Assembly: GCA_003567475.1 (NCBI GenBank)
Contig: PWZL01000039.1
Coordinates: 1-36,839 of the forward strand
Reading direction: 5' to 3'
DNA from: Gammaproteobacteria bacterium
GTDB taxonomy: Bacteria > Pseudomonadota > Gammaproteobacteria > Steroidobacterales > PWYM01
DNA length: 36,839 nt
The notes under the pieces are model-generated. The model ran no database searches and was not told the DNA's origin. It saw nothing but the letters and a program-made list of their open reading frames with translations. Shown piece by piece: positions 12,333 through 20,612 of this stretch (positions are counted from its first letter, which is position 1; each line of letters starts with the position of its first letter). The translations under genes were made by a program, and so were the position numbers.

Positions 12333-13556
12333 ATCCTCGATCTCACCCGCACGGAACGCGGCCGACGCGTCCTCTTCGCACTGCTGTATCTGGCCGAAGG
12401 CGCGCCTATCGGCTTCATCTGGTGGGCCGTACCCACACGGCTGCGCGAGGCCGGGGTGCCGGTCGGCACCATCGCGCTGCTGACTTCCGTGATTATCCTG
12501 CCGTGGGCGTTCAAGTTTCTGTGGGCGCCACTGGTGGACGTGCTGCGGGGCCGGCGTTGGGGTCGGCGCGCGTGGATCGTCGGCGCGCAGGTACTCATGG
12601 GGCTGACACTGCTGCCACTGGCGTTCGTCGACTGGCAGATGTCGCTCGGGCTGCTGTTCGCCCTGCTCCTGATGCACGCCTTCGCAGCCGCCACCCAGGA
12701 CGTGGCGATCGATGCCTGGGCGATCAGCGTGACGCCTCGATCACAGCTGGGTGCCATCAACGGCTGGATGCAGGTCGGTATGCTCTCGGGTCGCTGGCTG
12801 TTCGGCGCCGGGTTTCTGCTGGTGGCGCATGTGGTGGCGGATACCGTGGCGGTGCTCGTGATGATCGCGGTGATCTGGGTCACCACCCTGGTGGTGCTGC
12901 TCGCCAGTGAAGCCGACGATGACGCCGCTGCGCTGCGCGTCGGACTGGGCGATCGCTGGCAGCGATTCTTTACGACCCTGCGCAGCGCGTTTCGCAGTCC
13001 GGACACCTGGCTGGGTATCCTGCTCGCACTGCTTGCCTTTGCAGGCTTCAAGGCGGTGGGCGACATCGCCGGGCCGTTCCTGGTCGACCGTGGTCTGTCC
13101 TCTGCGGGTGTCGGACGGTTTTTCACCGGCGCCCTGGTGGCCATGATTGCCGGTGCGCTGCTCGGGGGCTGGCTCGCCGATCGTTTCGGTGTCCGCCGCA
13201 CGGTCGGTGGGCTGGTGGTGTTGGCCGCGGGGGTGGTGTTGGCGACCAGTGGTGCCGCCGTGGCGACAGCGGGCGGGCATCCGCTGGTGATCACGGGTCT
13301 GCTTGGCGTCTACCTCTGCGCTGGCCTGCTCACGGCGGCGGCCTACGCGCTGTTCATGCGACTCACCGATCCACGGCTTGGGGCCACCCAGTTTTCCGCC
13401 TACATGGGCGCGATCAATGGCTGCGAGGCCTGGGCCGGCTTCACCGCCGGGCAGCTGGCCGAACGCTTCGATTATCCCGTGGGATTCGTCGCTGTGGCCA
13501 TGGCGTCGCTGCTGGCGCTGCCGGTGCTGTGGCGGCTGCGCATGAGCAGCCGGTAG
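12333..13556 (+). CDS. AmpG-like MFS transporter with apparent ATC start
   Basis: A major facilitator of about 407 residues resembling AmpG, the inner-membrane permease for anhydromuropeptides, and related carriers. The conserved region includes AEGAPIGFIWWAVPT in helix 1, FKFLWAPLVDVLRGRR in helix 2 and ATQDVAIDAWAI. About 11-12 transmembrane helices are visible. The first in-frame ATG/GTG/TTG codon is the GTG at 12456, which would delete helix 1. Yet the frame is clearly coding upstream to a stop at 12303. The only position that combines AGGGAG nine bases upstream with a start at the expected N-terminus is ATC at 12333. This is either a rare non-standard start, a sequencing error or a start lost by mutation. 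The 3' end overlaps the RND pump gene tail-to-tail by 85 bases. Confidence 0.75.
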   Translation: MLDLTRTERGRRVLFALLYLAEGAPIGFIWWAVPTRLREAGVPVGTIALLTSVIILPWAFKFLWAPLVDVLRGRRWGRRAWIVGAQVLMGLTLLPLAFVDWQMSLGLLFALLLMHAFAAATQDVAIDAWAISVTPRSQLGAINGWMQVGMLSGRWLFGAGFLLVAHVVADTVAVLVMIAVIWVTTLVVLLASEADDDAAALRVGLGDRWQRFFTTLRSAFRSPDTWLGILLALLAFAGFKAVGDIAGPFLVDRGLSSAGVGRFFTGALVAMIAGALLGGWLADRFGVRRTVGGLVVLAAGVVLATSGAAVATAGGHPLVITGLLGVYLCAGLLTAAAYALFMRLTDPRLGATQFSAYMGAINGCEAWAGFTAGQLAERFDYPVGFVAVAMASLLALPVLWRLRMSSR

Positions 13557-16534
13557 AGCACCGGCACCACCAGCAGTGTCAGCGCGCTGGAGGCGATCAG
13601 CCCGGAGATGATGGCCCAGGCCATCGGCGGCCAGAGTGTCGACTGCGTGAAGGTCAACGGCAGCAGTCCGGCGACAGTGGTGGTCGTCGTCAGCAGGATC
13701 GGTCGCGTACGCCGCACCACCGCCTCGGCGATGGCCTTGGCAGGCAGCATTCCCTCGCGTCGTCTTGCTTCGGCCACGTCCACCATCACGATGGCGTTGT
13801 TGACCACGATACCGACCAGCGCCACCACCCCGAGCAGCGCCATGAAGCCGAAGGGCTGACCGGCGAGCAGCAGCCCGGGGATGACCCCGACTGCTGCCAG
13901 CGGGACGGTCGCCAGGACGATGGCGACGAGACGAAAGGAATTGAACTGCCAGAGCAGGAAGACGAGCAGCAGCAGCAGACCGATGGGCAGGCTGCGGAAC
14001 AGCGCGCTGTTCGCCTGTCCGGCCTCTTCGGCGGCGCCGCCCAGTGCGAGTTCCACGCCCTCTGGCAGGTTCAAGGCCGCGACTCGCGGCATCAACCGGT
14101 CCAGCACCTGCCCATAGGTCACGCCGTCCTCGGTCTCGGCGAGGACCTGGGTCATGCGGCGCAGGTCACGGTGCTCGATGACCGCGGGCTGGTAGGTCAG
14201 CCGTGGCTGGATGAACTGGGTGACCGGCAGCCTATCGCCCTGCGGAGTCAGCAGGGAAAGGCCCGCGAGCGACTCCAGTGCCAGCCGCTCACCCTCGGGG
14301 GTGCGCAGCCGGATCGGCACGGGTTCGCGCCCTGCGCGCCACAGCGAAGTGGTCTCCCCCAGCGTGGCACCGGCGAGCGCGGCGCGGATATCCCCCCTCG
14401 CCAGGCCATGGCGTGCGGCCTCCGCGTCATCGATATCCAGCGCCAGCACCGGCATACCCGTGCCCAGCCGGTGGCGGACGTCGACCGCGCCCGGTGTGGC
14501 CCTGAGTTCGCGCATGATCAGCTCCACTGCCGTCTCAAGCTCGCCCGTGCTGCGGCCATACACCAGGATCTCGACCGGCGCCTCGACGGGTGGCCCCTGG
14601 CCCAGTCGCCGGGGCGTGACCTGCGCATCCGGCAGCAGCGGGGGCGCGACCTCCCGCACGTAGCGCACCAGTTCGGGCAATTCACGGTCACTGGGGGTGG
14701 TCAAGACCAGGCGGGCGCGGTGGGATATCGCGGGGATCTGCATGAGGTTGTAGTAGAAACGCGGGCCGCTGAAGCCGGCGAACACCTGCGTATCAAGCAC
14801 GGCCGGGTGTTCCGCAAGCACCTGTGCCAGCCCACGCGCGGCCAGCGCGGTATGCTCGGTCCGGGTCCCTTCCGGCAGGGTCAGATCGACGACCAGCTGG
14901 TTGCGGTCGGTATCCGGAAAGAAGTCGCGGGGCAGCAGACTGGCCATCGCCAGGCTGAGCACGAGCAGTGCGCAGGCGCACAGCAGGACTGCCCAGGGGT
15001 GGTCGTGACCGACGCGTGCCAGGTGGCTGCCAAACGCGTGGAAACCGCCTTTCGTCGGAGGGGTGCGTGGTTTCAGGAGCGCCGCGCCGACGGAGGGCGT
15101 CACGAACATCGCGTAGAGATAGCTCACCACCAGCACGAACATGATCATGATCGGGACGTCCCGGGTGAAATCCGCGGTATCCCCACGCGCCAGCAGCAGG
15201 GGCGTGAACGCAGCGATGGTGGTGCCGGTCGCCGCTGCGAGCGGTCCAGCCAGTTCCCGAACAGCCCGATCGGCTGCCTCTCTCCGGCTGGCGCCACGGT
15301 CGAGATGCCACTGCAGGTTCTCTGCCATCACGATGGCATTGTCGACCAGCATGCCCAGTGCGATCACCAGGCCGGCGATACCGATCTGGTGCAGCACACC
15401 GCCGCCGGTGGCGAAGACGCCGAGCGCGCTGAGGGTTACCAGCGGCAGGAGGCTGGCGACCAGCAGGCCGAGCCGCAGGCCCATGAAAGCGAACAGCACG
15501 GTGGCGACGATCAGGACGCCCACCAGCAGGGTCCGTCCGAGTTCACGGATACGTCGCTCCACCCACTGCGGCTGAAAAAACACCTCCTCGATCGCCAGCG
15601 GCGCATAGTCCGGGCGAAGTTCTTCCAGCAGCGCGCGCAAGTCTCTGCCAAAACGCACCACATCGAGCCGGTTCTCCGGGATCACCACACCCAGCGCCAC
15701 CGCTGGACGTCCGTTACTCCAGATCCGTTCGGCGGCCGGTTCCGTCGGCACCAGTGCGATATCGGCGATCTCGCTCAACGGGAGCAGCGTACCGGCCGGC
15801 GTGCGGATCGGGGTGGCCGCCAGCTCGTCCAGTGTCGTGTACGGTCCGGTGGGGGAGAGCACCAGGCTTCGGTTGCCGGTGATGAGCAGACCTCCCGGCT
15901 GGGTTCGGTTGGTCGCCTCGATCTGCCGGGCCAGTGTCGCCACGTCCAGACCGACGCTCTCCAGGCGCGCAGCGTCCACGCGCAGCAGCAGCTGTTCGCC
16001 TGGACTGCCCAGCACCTCCACGCGACCGATATCCGGCAGGCGAAACAGGTCTCGGCGCAGCGAACGCGCCGCCTCCAGCAGTTCCAGCAGGTCGTCGCTG
16101 CCGGTGATCGACAGGACGACGCCGTGACTCTCCATCATCCGGTCGTTGATCCGTGCTGTCCCGGCCTCGGCGGGGAAGCGGCGCTCGGCGCGCTGCACGG
16201 CAACCCGGATACGGTCCCAGGCGCTGTCGGTATCGTAGACGTGCTGGTGCATGCTGACGACCAGAAAGCCGACACCGAGCCGCGCCGTGGCCCGAATCTC
16301 ACGCACTTCCTCGACGCTGACCAGTTCCTCTTCCAGGGGTTGGACGATCAGACGCGCGACATCGGCAGGTTCGGCGCCGGGCCACTCGACCAGGATCTGG
16401 CCGTAGCGGTAAGGAAAGAACGGATCTTCCTGGCGGTCCATGGTGAACCAGGCCACCAGCCCGATCCCGGAGACCAGCAACACGGCGGCAAACACCAGCC
16501 GCCGGTAATCCAGCGCGGCGAACACCAGGTTCAT
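13472..16534 (-). CDS. RND efflux pump, AcrB-type inner-membrane subunit
   Basis: A 1,020-residue resistance-nodulation-division transporter that would export hydrophobic or toxic compounds using the proton gradient. It shows the tandem layout of the family: TM1 at residues 13-33, a large periplasmic loop, TM2-6, a linker, TM7, a second loop and TM8-12. The helix-4 motif is GMLVDNAIVMAENL: the first AcrB aspartate (D407) is kept and the second (D408) is Asn. In helix 10 the region of AcrB K940 reads GIVVNNAIVMVD, so Lys is replaced. This combination is common in one AcrB-like subgroup. The ATG overlaps the stop of the adaptor gene as ATGA. No outer-membrane channel gene is present; a TolC encoded elsewhere is likely. 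Confidence 0.95.
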   Translation of the reverse strand: MNLVFAALDYRRLVFAAVLLVSGIGLVAWFTMDRQEDPFFPYRYGQILVEWPGAEPADVARLIVQPLEEELVSVEEVREIRATARLGVGFLVVSMHQHVYDTDSAWDRIRVAVQRAERRFPAEAGTARINDRMMESHGVVLSITGSDDLLELLEAARSLRRDLFRLPDIGRVEVLGSPGEQLLLRVDAARLESVGLDVATLARQIEATNRTQPGGLLITGNRSLVLSPTGPYTTLDELAATPIRTPAGTLLPLSEIADIALVPTEPAAERIWSNGRPAVALGVVIPENRLDVVRFGRDLRALLEELRPDYAPLAIEEVFFQPQWVERRIRELGRTLLVGVLIVATVLFAFMGLRLGLLVASLLPLVTLSALGVFATGGGVLHQIGIAGLVIALGMLVDNAIVMAENLQWHLDRGASRREAADRAVRELAGPLAAATGTTIAAFTPLLLARGDTADFTRDVPIMIMFVLVVSYLYAMFVTPSVGAALLKPRTPPTKGGFHAFGSHLARVGHDHPWAVLLCACALLVLSLAMASLLPRDFFPDTDRNQLVVDLTLPEGTRTEHTALAARGLAQVLAEHPAVLDTQVFAGFSGPRFYYNLMQIPAISHRARLVLTTPSDRELPELVRYVREVAPPLLPDAQVTPRRLGQGPPVEAPVEILVYGRSTGELETAVELIMRELRATPGAVDVRHRLGTGMPVLALDIDDAEAARHGLARGDIRAALAGATLGETTSLWRAGREPVPIRLRTPEGERLALESLAGLSLLTPQGDRLPVTQFIQPRLTYQPAVIEHRDLRRMTQVLAETEDGVTYGQVLDRLMPRVAALNLPEGVELALGGAAEEAGQANSALFRSLPIGLLLLLVFLLWQFNSFRLVAIVLATVPLAAVGVIPGLLLAGQPFGFMALLGVVALVGIVVNNAIVMVDVAEARRREGMLPAKAIAEAVVRRTRPILLTTTTTVAGLLPLTFTQSTLWPPMAWAIISGLIASSALTLLVVPVLYRLLMRSRHSTGSASSDAMATATNPTG

Positions 16535-17631
16535 GGCAGGATCCGCACCGCCTCGCCATCAAGCAGCATCCCGTGTCCGGCAACGATCACCCGGTCGCCC
16601 GGCGTGAGATCCCCGATCACGGCGACATGGCTACCCTGTACCGCACCCACGCGTACGGCAACCCGCTCGGCACGATGGTTATTGACCCGGAAGACCCGGC
16701 TGTTGCCGGTGCCGGGGTCGACGATTGCGGCCAAGGGCACCAGCAGCGCGTTGCCGCGATCCACCTCGATGAAGGCATGGACAGACTCGCCCGGCGCCCA
16801 TGGCGTCTCGGCTGGCAGGGTGACGACAACCGGTAACGTGCGGCCCGGGGAGGCGCCTCCGGCCTCTCGCACGACCGCCTGGACGACCGCGCCGTCGATA
16901 ATGCGCTGCACGCGAACCGGGTGCCCCGGACGCAGACTGGCGGCCCAGGTGGCGGGCAGTTCCAGGCGAAGTTCGAGGTGATCCGGATCGGCGAGATCCA
17001 ACACCGCCTGACCGGTGCTGACGAAATCCCCGGGCTCGACATGGACCTCGGTAATGATCCCGGCGAACGGTGCGCGCAGACTGGCTTCGGCAAGCTGATC
17101 ACGGGCATCGGCCACGGCGGCCTCGGCCCGCGCCAGCCCCTCGAGGGCGCCGTCACGCCGCGACCGCGCCTGCTCGACCTCGCTCTCGGCGACCAGTTGT
17201 CGTTCGGCCAGGCCCTCCAGCCGTTCGACATCGCGCTGCAGTTGTGCGGCCCTCTCGCGCGCCTCACGTTCGGCCGCCTCTGCCGCCAGGACGCCCGGCT
17301 GTAACGCCGGGTTGCGCAGGAGGGCCAGGCGCTCGCCGGCCTCCACCCGCTGGCCAAGACTCACGGGGCGCTCGACCATGATGCCGGCATGCAGGAAAGT
17401 GAGCTGGGCCCGCTGGACGGCGCGCAAGCTACCCGGCAGGCGCAGGCCCTCAGTCGCGGGCGCCTGCTGCACCTCAACGGCTTCCACGGGACGGACGAGC
17501 GCCGAGGCGCTAGAGGCCGGATCGGCCGAGCCCGAAGTGCAGCCGGCCCCGATCAGAGTGGTCAGCACCAGGCCGAGACCCATCAACGCACCAGAGCGCA
17601 GCGGGCGGGGTGACAGGCTGTGTCGATTCAT
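16531..17631 (-). CDS. RND efflux periplasmic adaptor (membrane-fusion protein)
   Basis: A 366-residue periplasmic adaptor linking the RND pump to an outer-membrane channel. The N-terminus is a lipoprotein signal ending LIGAGC. It is followed by the first half of a lipoyl domain (LHAGIMVERPVSLGQRVEAG), a coiled-coil hairpin (about residues 115-180, rich in Glu/Arg/Ala), the second lipoyl half (ASLRAPFAGIITEVHVEPGD), then beta-barrel and membrane-proximal domains. It sits 17 bases after tetR and overlaps the pump gene by four bases, so tetR-adaptor-pump form one operon. Confidence 0.93.
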   Translation of the reverse strand: MNRHSLSPRPLRSGALMGLGLVLTTLIGAGCTSGSADPASSASALVRPVEAVEVQQAPATEGLRLPGSLRAVQRAQLTFLHAGIMVERPVSLGQRVEAGERLALLRNPALQPGVLAAEAAEREARERAAQLQRDVERLEGLAERQLVAESEVEQARSRRDGALEGLARAEAAVADARDQLAEASLRAPFAGIITEVHVEPGDFVSTGQAVLDLADPDHLELRLELPATWAASLRPGHPVRVQRIIDGAVVQAVVREAGGASPGRTLPVVVTLPAETPWAPGESVHAFIEVDRGNALLVPLAAIVDPGTGNSRVFRVNNHRAERVAVRVGAVQGSHVAVIGDLTPGDRVIVAGHGMLLDGEAVRILP

Positions 17632-18265: not shown

Positions 18266-18294
18266 AATCTACTATCGACTGGCCGACCGGTCAA
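18266..18294 (-). promoter_or_regulatory. tetR promoter with overlapping dyad operator
   Basis: On the minus strand TTGACC (18294-18289) and TAGATT (18271-18266) are separated by 17 bases. Overlapping the -35 and spacer (18275-18294) is an imperfect inverted repeat, TCGACTGGCC against GACCGGTCAA (seven of ten pairs). It resembles the GACCGGTC-type operators of many TetR repressors of efflux genes. Confidence 0.55.
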
Positions 18295-18364
18295 TATGTC
18301 GCACTGCAATAATCACGTTGCGATGCAGCATGCCCGCCGAGGTGTCCGCCTGCCGCCGTCAGGG

Positions 18365-18394: not shown

Positions 18395-18420
18395 GTGGGC
18401 ACATCTGCGTGGAGACTGTC

Positions 18421-18498
18421 ATGCACTGGAGTCGCCTGTTGGGTATTGCCCTGTTGGCCCTTGCCGCGGTCCTGTTGCTGTTCGGCGGCCGTCGTTGA
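18421..18498 (+). CDS. Small 25-residue membrane peptide
   Basis: A complete 25-codon ORF that is easy to overlook. GGAG lies six bases before its ATG. The peptide is MHWSR, a single hydrophobic Leu/Ala/Val-rich helix of about 16 residues, then GGRR, so it could insert in the inner membrane with a charged end on each side. Its TGA overlaps the ATG of the ABC ATPase gene (TGATG), the usual arrangement for coupled translation by re-initiation. It may be a small subunit or regulator of the exporter, or only a coupling device. I know of no named family. Confidence 0.55.
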   Translation: MHWSRLLGIALLALAAVLLLFGGRR

Positions 18499-19466
18499 TG
18501 CGCACGCCGCGCGTGCGTGCGGACAGCCCGGCGATTCTGGCCCATGGCCTGCGCAAGGCGTTCGGCGCCACGCGCGCTCTGGCTGGTGTCGATCTCGAGG
18601 TCCCGCAGGGCAGTGTGGTCGGCATGCTCGGGCCCAACGGCGCGGGCAAGACCACGACGGTGCGGATTCTTGCCACCCTGCTCGTGCCCGACGCCGGCGA
18701 CGCCTGGGTCGGCGGATTTCACGTGCACCGTGAGGCCCATGCGGTCCGCCAGTTGATCGGCCTCACCGGACAGTACGCGTCGGTGGACGAGCGCCTGACG
18801 GGGCGCGAGAACCTGTTGATGATCGCGAGGCTCCTCGGACAGTCGCGGGCCCAGGCCCGCGCGCGGGCCGACCGGCTGCTCGAGACCTTCAGCCTGGCGC
18901 ATGCGGCCGGGCGCGCGGCCCGCAGCTACTCGGGTGGCATGCGCCGGCGCCTCGATCTCGCCGCCAGCCTGGTCGGTCGGCCACGGATCCTGTTTCTCGA
19001 CGAGCCCACCACGGGGCTTGATCCACGCGCCCGGCTCGAACTGTGGCAGCTGATCCGGGAACTGGTCGCGGAGGGCACCACCGTCCTGCTCACCACCCAG
19101 TACCTGGAGGAAGCCGACGCCCTCGCCGACGAGATTGTGGTGGTCGACCAGGGCCGCGTGATCGCCTCCGGCACCGCCGAGCAGCTGAAGGCGCAGGTCG
19201 GTGCTCGTGCGCTGGTGCTGGTCGCGGCGGACGAGACCGAGGTGGCGGCCCTGCAGGCGCTGTTGCGCGAAATCAGCGAGCGGGAGCCGCAGGTTGAAGG
19301 TCGGCGGCTGTCGGTTCCGGCGGCAGACGCGGCAGTGCTGCGGCAGGTCGTGCGGCGGCTCGATGAGGCCTCGCTCGATGTCGATGAAGTCACCCTGCGC
19401 AGCGCCAGTCTCGACGATGTCTTCCTGGCACTGACCGGGCATGGAGCGGAGACGCCCTTGCCATGA
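18498..19466 (+). CDS. ABC exporter ATP-binding protein, DrrA type
   Basis: A 322-residue ATPase of the daunorubicin-resistance (DrrA) subfamily, which powers export of drugs or lipids with a DrrB-type permease. Motifs: Walker A GPNGAGKT (residues 45-52), Q-loop LTGQYASVDE, signature YSGGMRRRLDLA, Walker B ILFLDEPTTGLDP, and TTQYLEEAD, where Gln replaces the H-loop His as in other DrrA proteins. A C-terminal extension ending SLDDVFLALTGH is typical of the subfamily. I chose the ATG at 18498; the frame is open upstream to 18318, but the extra residues are not conserved in character and the coupled small ORF ends exactly here. It overlaps the permease gene by four bases (ATGA). Confidence 0.92.
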   Translation: MRTPRVRADSPAILAHGLRKAFGATRALAGVDLEVPQGSVVGMLGPNGAGKTTTVRILATLLVPDAGDAWVGGFHVHREAHAVRQLIGLTGQYASVDERLTGRENLLMIARLLGQSRAQARARADRLLETFSLAHAAGRAARSYSGGMRRRLDLAASLVGRPRILFLDEPTTGLDPRARLELWQLIRELVAEGTTVLLTTQYLEEADALADEIVVVDQGRVIASGTAEQLKAQVGARALVLVAADETEVAALQALLREISEREPQVEGRRLSVPAADAAVLRQVVRRLDEASLDVDEVTLRSASLDDVFLALTGHGAETPLP

Positions 19467-20251
19467 GCGCCTCCCGTCCCGGCGTGGTGGCGGGTTTGCG
19501 CCAGACCGCGACGCTGGCCTGGCGCTCGCTGCTGCAGATTCGGCATAACCCGTGGGAACTGGGTGACTTCAGCATCCAGCCGATCCTGTTCCTGCTGCTG
19601 TTCATGTTCGTGTTCGGCGGCGCAATCGCCGGGTCCACCGCCGAGTACCTGCGGTTCATCCTGCCCGGCGTGATCGTCATGAACATGGTGTTCGTGACCG
19701 TCTACGTGGGCTATGGCCTGAATACCGATCTCACCCGGGGGGTGTTTGATCGCTTCCGTGCGATGCCGATCGCCCGCTGGGCCCCGCTGGCAGGGCGCAT
19801 CGTGGCCGATCTGGTCAAGCAGGCCTGGTGTATTCTGCTGCTCATGGCGGTCGGTCTGCTGCTGGGTTTTCGCGTGGAGGCGCCATGGCCCGGTGTGCTG
19901 GCAATGATGCTGCTGGTGCTGACGGTGGCGCTGGCGATGTCGTGGATCATGGTGCTGGTCGGCGTGCTTGCCCGGGACCCGGAACACGTGCAGCTGTTCG
20001 GCTTCACCGCGCTGTTTCCGGTGACCTTCATCAGCAACGTGTTCGTGCCTGTGGACACCATGCCCGACTGGCTGCAGGGCGCCGTCATGCTCAATCCGGT
20101 GTCCTTGCTGGCCGATGCCTCACGCGGTCTGCTGCTCGGCGGTCCGGTGCTGGCGCCGGCACTGGGCGCGCTTGCGTGGGCCGTGCTGCTGACGGCGGTT
20201 TTTGCGCCCCTCTCCGTATGGGCGCTCAACCGACGGCTTGCGCGGGGTTGA
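19463..20251 (+). CDS. ABC exporter permease, DrrB type
   Basis: A 262-residue ABC-2 permease with six membrane segments. A cytoplasmic N-terminus (WRSLLQIRHNPWELGD) precedes TM1 (PILFLLLFMFVFGGAI). TM2 is FILPGVIVMNMVFVTVY, and the coupling segment is GVFDRFRAMPIARWAPLAGR. The remaining helices include the conserved FPVTFISNVFVPVDTMPDWL loop ending the ABC-2 core. It should form a complex with the DrrA-like ATPase, whose gene it overlaps by four bases. The substrate cannot be predicted; placement beside a TetR-RND operon hints at toxic-compound export. Confidence 0.92.
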   Translation: MSASRPGVVAGLRQTATLAWRSLLQIRHNPWELGDFSIQPILFLLLFMFVFGGAIAGSTAEYLRFILPGVIVMNMVFVTVYVGYGLNTDLTRGVFDRFRAMPIARWAPLAGRIVADLVKQAWCILLLMAVGLLLGFRVEAPWPGVLAMMLLVLTVALAMSWIMVLVGVLARDPEHVQLFGFTALFPVTFISNVFVPVDTMPDWLQGAVMLNPVSLLADASRGLLLGGPVLAPALGALAWAVLLTAVFAPLSVWALNRRLARG

Positions 20252-20351: not shown

Positions 20352-20612
20352 ATGATCAGAATCAAGGCGCATCTACATACCGATGAGACGCTGGACGAGA
20401 GTCACCTCCTCGATCTTCGTCGCGTCGTCGAGAGCATCAGCGCCAACCCGGATCACGCGCTGGTCTATGCGCATGAAGGGGACGCTGGCGGGGTGATGGC
20501 GGAATTCGCCGTCGAGGATGCACCGCAGGCCAGCCTGCTCGAGGACATCAGTCGGGCACTCATGAGTGCCGTTCCGGGCGTCTATGACGTCGGTCTGGCC
20601 TTTCGCGAATGA
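20352..20612 (+). CDS. Small acidic protein of unknown function
   Basis: An 86-residue soluble protein with an alternating strand/helix pattern (IRIKAHLHTDE; LLDLRRVVESISANPDHALVYAHEG; MAEFAVEDAPQASLLEDISRALMSAVPGVYDVGLAF). It is acidic and shows strong GC bias at third codon positions, which supports a real gene. GGAG lies ten bases before the ATG at 20352; a longer upstream open frame runs into the ABC permease gene and is not convincing. Nearly the whole gene is antisense to the 3' end of the 5'-nucleotidase frame. I do not recognise a family; the size suggests a small ferredoxin-like alpha/beta domain. Confidence 0.65.
   Translation: MIRIKAHLHTDETLDESHLLDLRRVVESISANPDHALVYAHEGDAGGVMAEFAVEDAPQASLLEDISRALMSAVPGVYDVGLAFRE

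Follow-up and report, generated by a model that had tools for sequence, protein, structure and literature searches.

Small membrane proteins can tune RND pumps, and AcrZ and WatS1 are two cases described in PMC10710835 and PMC10355033. AcrZ, a protein of 49 amino acids, is a modulator of AcrB, and WatS1 has 55 amino acids (both from PMC10710835) and belongs with the WatABO pump of Methylomonas sp. DH-1 (PMC10355033). A limited literature search returned no papers on DUF3185 (PF11381), on translational coupling of DrrA and DrrB or on shrunken microproteins, which is not proof of their absence from print.

The window analyzed here is a stretch of 36,839 nucleotides from a gammaproteobacterial genome, in which a 25-codon ORF at 18421..18498 (+) translates to MHWSRLLGIALLALAAVLLLFGGRR followed by a stop. 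The initial annotation had proposed a hidden 25-residue membrane peptide coupled to a DrrAB exporter, citing the placement of a GGAG, a hydrophobic helix and a TGATG junction with the ABC ATPase gene, and re-reading of the sequence confirmed each of these three features. The Shine-Dalgarno-like (SD) GGAG at 18411..18414 (+) lies 6 nt 5' of the ATG, the peak Kyte-Doolittle hydropathy is 2.84 (17-residue window), and the TGA (18496-18498) shares one base with the ATPase start codon (18498-18500). The ATPase gene (18498..19466, +) encodes a DrrA-type protein that scores 348.2 bits against TIGR01188, above the NCBIfam cut-off of 312.45; it is followed by an ABC-2 permease gene (19463..20251, +), whose product exceeds the PF01061 cut-off and matches DrrB models only below theirs. 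On the other side, a TetR-family regulator (PF00440; 17649..18257, -) is transcribed divergently, and behind it lie genes for a HlyD-type membrane-fusion protein (16531..17631, -) and for a putative RND-type, AcrB-like pump (13472..16534, -).

The 25-mer resembles AcrZ in being a short single-helix membrane peptide encoded near transporter genes. It differs from AcrZ in that its gene adjoins an ABC ATPase gene, no pump binding is known for it, it derives by deletion from a two-helix protein (see below), and its short form is conserved neither in the other four genomes of the genus that were searched nor at any of 80 DrrA homologue loci. As with WatS1, the small ORF is unannotated, encodes one helix and lies in a setting of efflux genes with a dedicated regulator; WatS1 differs in having a LysR-type regulator, several homologous copies and a tested phenotype.

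The origin of the ORF becomes apparent from the other genomes of the genus (G001 to G004; G000 is the genome of the window). In G002, the gene order matches that of the window (divergent TetR, ORF, drrA, drrB), with 84%, 88% and 93% identity for TetR, DrrA and DrrB, respectively. At the same site, G002 has a 69-codon ORF that starts MHWSRILGIALL and ends LFGGRR, and its product is a DUF3185 protein (86.3 bits; Pfam cut-off 25.3). The orthologues in G003 and G004 are also exactly 69 amino acids long and divergent from the same TetR, without adjoining DrrAB, and are 88% and 74% identical to the G002 protein. Against residues 1-22 of the G002 protein, the 25-codon ORF shows 73% identity (E 5.8e-4, one genome searched), and it shares the carboxy-terminal LFGGRR with all three orthologues. 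When used as a query, the 25-mer finds DUF3185 genes in G003 (E 2.8e-5), G002 (4.5e-5), G001 (8.1e-4) and G004 (1.9e-3); these full-length genes are the best matches in the four genomes, where the short form was not found, leaving the genome of the window as its sole carrier among the five searched. That genome also has two other DUF3185 genes (C91 and C58) above the Pfam cut-off.

Synteny and in-frame similarity to a full-length member thus both tie the 25-codon ORF to DUF3185, with which it shares locus, frame and start. To this extent the initial annotation is supported: the ORF descends from a coding sequence read in the same frame, has an SD and a hydrophobic helix, and sits tightly against a DrrA-type gene. 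The peptide itself, however, falls short of the DUF3185 cut-off, has no match among the Pfam and NCBIfam models at E 0.001, and lacks the family architecture of two hydrophobic helices and a conserved loop: 44 of the 69 residues are missing, among them the entire loop and the greater part of helix 2, and it has one hydrophobic stretch where the orthologues in G002, G003 and G004 have two. Frame and hydrophobicity, which the initial annotation expected to find in relatives, are indeed conserved there, but in the form of helix 1 of a larger protein.

Relative to the 210-nt orthologues, the 25-codon ORF is short of 132 nt, in-frame, such that helix 1 (codons 1 to ~19) is joined to the end of helix 2 (the last ~6 codons). 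Modeling a 132-nt deletion raises the number of positions identical to the window (of 78) from 47 to 60 for G002, from 48 to 61 for G003 and from 39 to 48 for G004. The best-fitting chimeras put the joint after ORF nucleotide 42-49 (G002) or 51-57 (G003), which defines a probable zone at 18462..18478 (+). In a 13-sequence DUF3185 alignment, peptide included, four columns are nearly invariant, and three of them (G39, T45 and G52) fall in the deleted part. Because DUF3185 is a broader family and three relatives have a full-length gene at this locus, it is the deleted form that is derived. Sequence comparison establishes that the ORF descends from a DUF3185 gene at a conserved TetR locus through the in-frame loss of 132 nt. 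As for its cause, the G002 orthologue has an exact 11-nt repeat in both helix regions, 129 nt apart, and this spacing would leave 26 codons rather than 25, so an exact direct repeat was rejected. With the two sides aligned in the 132-nt register, just 12-15 of 30 positions are the same; slippage between leucine-rich helix codons is a plausible cause.

The same repeat is what an assembly error would call upon, with a full 69-codon DUF3185 gene present and the assembler skipping 132 nt between similar helix codons. Eleven nucleotides of repeat are too few by far to confuse an assembler, and a spacing of 129 nt does not yield the observed 132 nt, which makes an error of this kind very improbable. 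That the ORF arose by chance, without ancestry, is scarcely credible: nothing was found in favor of it, and the syntenic, in-frame similarity to DUF3185 and the homologue at the same site refute it. Of the ORFs of 20-40 codons that begin with ATG on either strand of the window (64 in all), two reach a hydropathy of at least 1.6, and only the 25-codon ORF combines this with anti-SD pairing of -6 kcal/mol or better. As the sole hydrophobic, SD-bearing ORF among the 64 it is more than chance, and homology is the reason. Its SD itself is moderate (-6.4 kcal/mol, in about the best tenth of 400 random 20-mers from the window).

The intergenic region between the divergent TetR and DUF3185/peptide genes contains a near-palindromic 18-bp site, ACTGGCCGACCGGTCAAT (18278..18295, +), 20 bases before tetR. 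It overlaps a sigma-70-like promoter into tetR, TTGACC-17-TAGATT (18266..18294, -), and is a probable TetR operator as predicted from its conservation. This TetR is present in 8 of the 196 genomes searched, and six of the eight loci have the site unchanged; it differs by one base in G004 and by three in G001. In the window it occurs once, and shuffles allowing up to three mismatches give 0.11. A Y-pattern scan of the five genus genomes returned four zero-mismatch matches, all at this TetR locus. Another four matches differ from the pattern at two positions, and the TetR locus of G004 accounts for one of these; the reversed control pattern, scanned alongside, was matched twice. A second operator-like site, with two mismatches, is found in G004 between tetR and the fusion-protein gene (L117 5041-5058).

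At each of the eight loci, fusion-protein and RND-type genes lie behind the TetR gene. DUF3185 is intact beside the TetR in G002, G003 and G004, a relic in G000, and was not found within the TetR locus (~3.6 kb) of the other four TetR genomes. The arrangement of an intact DUF3185 gene divergent from a TetR-HlyD-RND operon occupies L116 3235-4194, L117 3991-4971 and L130 8534-9491 in the three same-genus genomes. It suggests that DUF3185 may belong to an efflux regulon, and it links an uncharacterized family, within a single genus, to efflux genes of the TetR-RND type.

The ORF is not tied to DrrAB. A scan of 80 DrrA homologue loci, 79 of which extend at least 150 nt upstream, found neither the peptide nor DUF3185 in the 600 nt before drrA, whether by tblastn (E up to 1) or with a profile built on 12 DUF3185 sequences. 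Ten of the loci each have one hydrophobic ORF (20-80 codons) that ends near the drrA start; by eye none is peptide-like. The check proposed in the initial annotation, a conserved short ORF upstream of drrA homologues, therefore fails, and a dedicated exporter peptide conserved at this position is rejected. With the relatives carrying a 69-residue two-helix DUF3185 protein, the idea of a dedicated modulator coupled to the exporter is not supported. DUF3185 was also rejected as a standing partner of DrrAB, as DrrA is near just 1 of the 15 DUF3185 copies examined, several of which lie near contig ends with their surroundings visible in part (the 15 come from 17 places, leaving out G001:C70:5116 and G001:C107). 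Two of the three relatives with DUF3185 beside this TetR, G003 and G004, have no adjoining DrrAB: behind DUF3185 there is a short-chain dehydrogenase ORF in G003, where no DrrA was found at E 1e-85, and a squalene/phytoene-synthase-like gene in G004. DrrA homologues in general are very common, as a plasmid search with DrrA indicated.

Substitutions in the 25 retained codons provide a further view of the short form. Here, dN is 0.111 for window-G002 and 0.112 for window-G003, compared with 0.039 for G002-G003, a rise that rests on few changes (5.5, 5.5 and 2.0); the 195 TetR codons show no comparable rise (0.095, 0.068 and 0.075, respectively). To G004, dN over the retained codons is 0.279 from the window, 0.217 from G002 and 0.158 from G003. 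These few changes hint that constraint on the retained codons was relaxed after the deletion. Nonsynonymous divergence is still below synonymous (pN 0.10, pS 0.52-0.67), which counts against reading the ORF as a relic, though dN far below dS is expected if most of the divergence predates the deletion, as it may. Also counting against a relic is that frame (a chance of one in three), SD and stop were all kept through the deletion. The deletion itself is seen in one genome.

The survival of frame, SD and stop could alternatively mean that the ORF, once shortened, acquired a new function, in which a one-helix peptide binds and tunes the ABC exporter or the TetR-linked RND pump in the manner of AcrZ. 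In favor of such a role, a conserved probable TetR operator precedes the ORF, an RND pump operon lies across from it, and AcrZ and WatS1 provide a precedent. We nevertheless consider it unlikely, because the short form is confined to one genome and unconserved, and its retained codons look relaxed, if anything. In addition, the arginines at both ends would suit a hairpin with both ends cytoplasmic and would be awkward for a purpose-built single helix. The more specific proposal that DUF3185 is a co-regulated membrane partner of the TetR-controlled RND pump, shrunk here to a one-helix peptide acting on that pump or on the ABC exporter, appears quite unlikely; if true, a small-protein modulator would have been born by the shrinking of a two-helix protein. 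A stronger form of coupling is that the ORF serves purely as a leader, the translation of any ORF opening the drrA start with the peptide sequence irrelevant. The one-base overlap of stop and start in the window, the two bases between the DUF3185 stop and the drrA ATG in G002, and the weak SD at drrA (-5.0 kcal/mol, in about the best quarter of random 20-mers) are consistent with a leader, whereas drrA homologues at other loci lack the 25-codon ORF. We give this possibility, which is compatible with a relic, a little under an even chance.

On balance, the 25-codon ORF is most likely a relic of a DUF3185 gene left by an in-frame deletion, and not a purpose-built regulator of a transporter; we infer that the peptide has no dedicated function. 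The ancestor would have been a 69-residue protein with two hydrophobic helices, encoded divergently from a TetR regulator, and on the branch or branches that led to G000 and G002 a drrAB pair lies directly behind the DUF3185 gene. In the lineage of the window, the 132-nt deletion joined the beginning of helix 1 to the tail of helix 2 and took out the whole loop. Because the original start, SD, stop and junction survive in the stump, its translation probably continues, and ribosomes finishing it may re-start at the overlapping drrA ATG, which is the most likely remaining effect. Any product would consist of a single helix flanked by arginines and would lack the loop that is conserved in DUF3185. 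What looks like a convincing 'hidden small protein', complete with SD, helix and tight junction, can therefore be what remains of a longer gene, and comparison with a single syntenic relative can decide where it came from.

Downstream of the permease gene, the window also contains an 86-codon ORF (20352-20612) that belongs to no Pfam family and overlaps, in antisense, the 3' end of a 5'-nucleotidase-like gene; it is kept in G002 and G003 with 83-85% identity.
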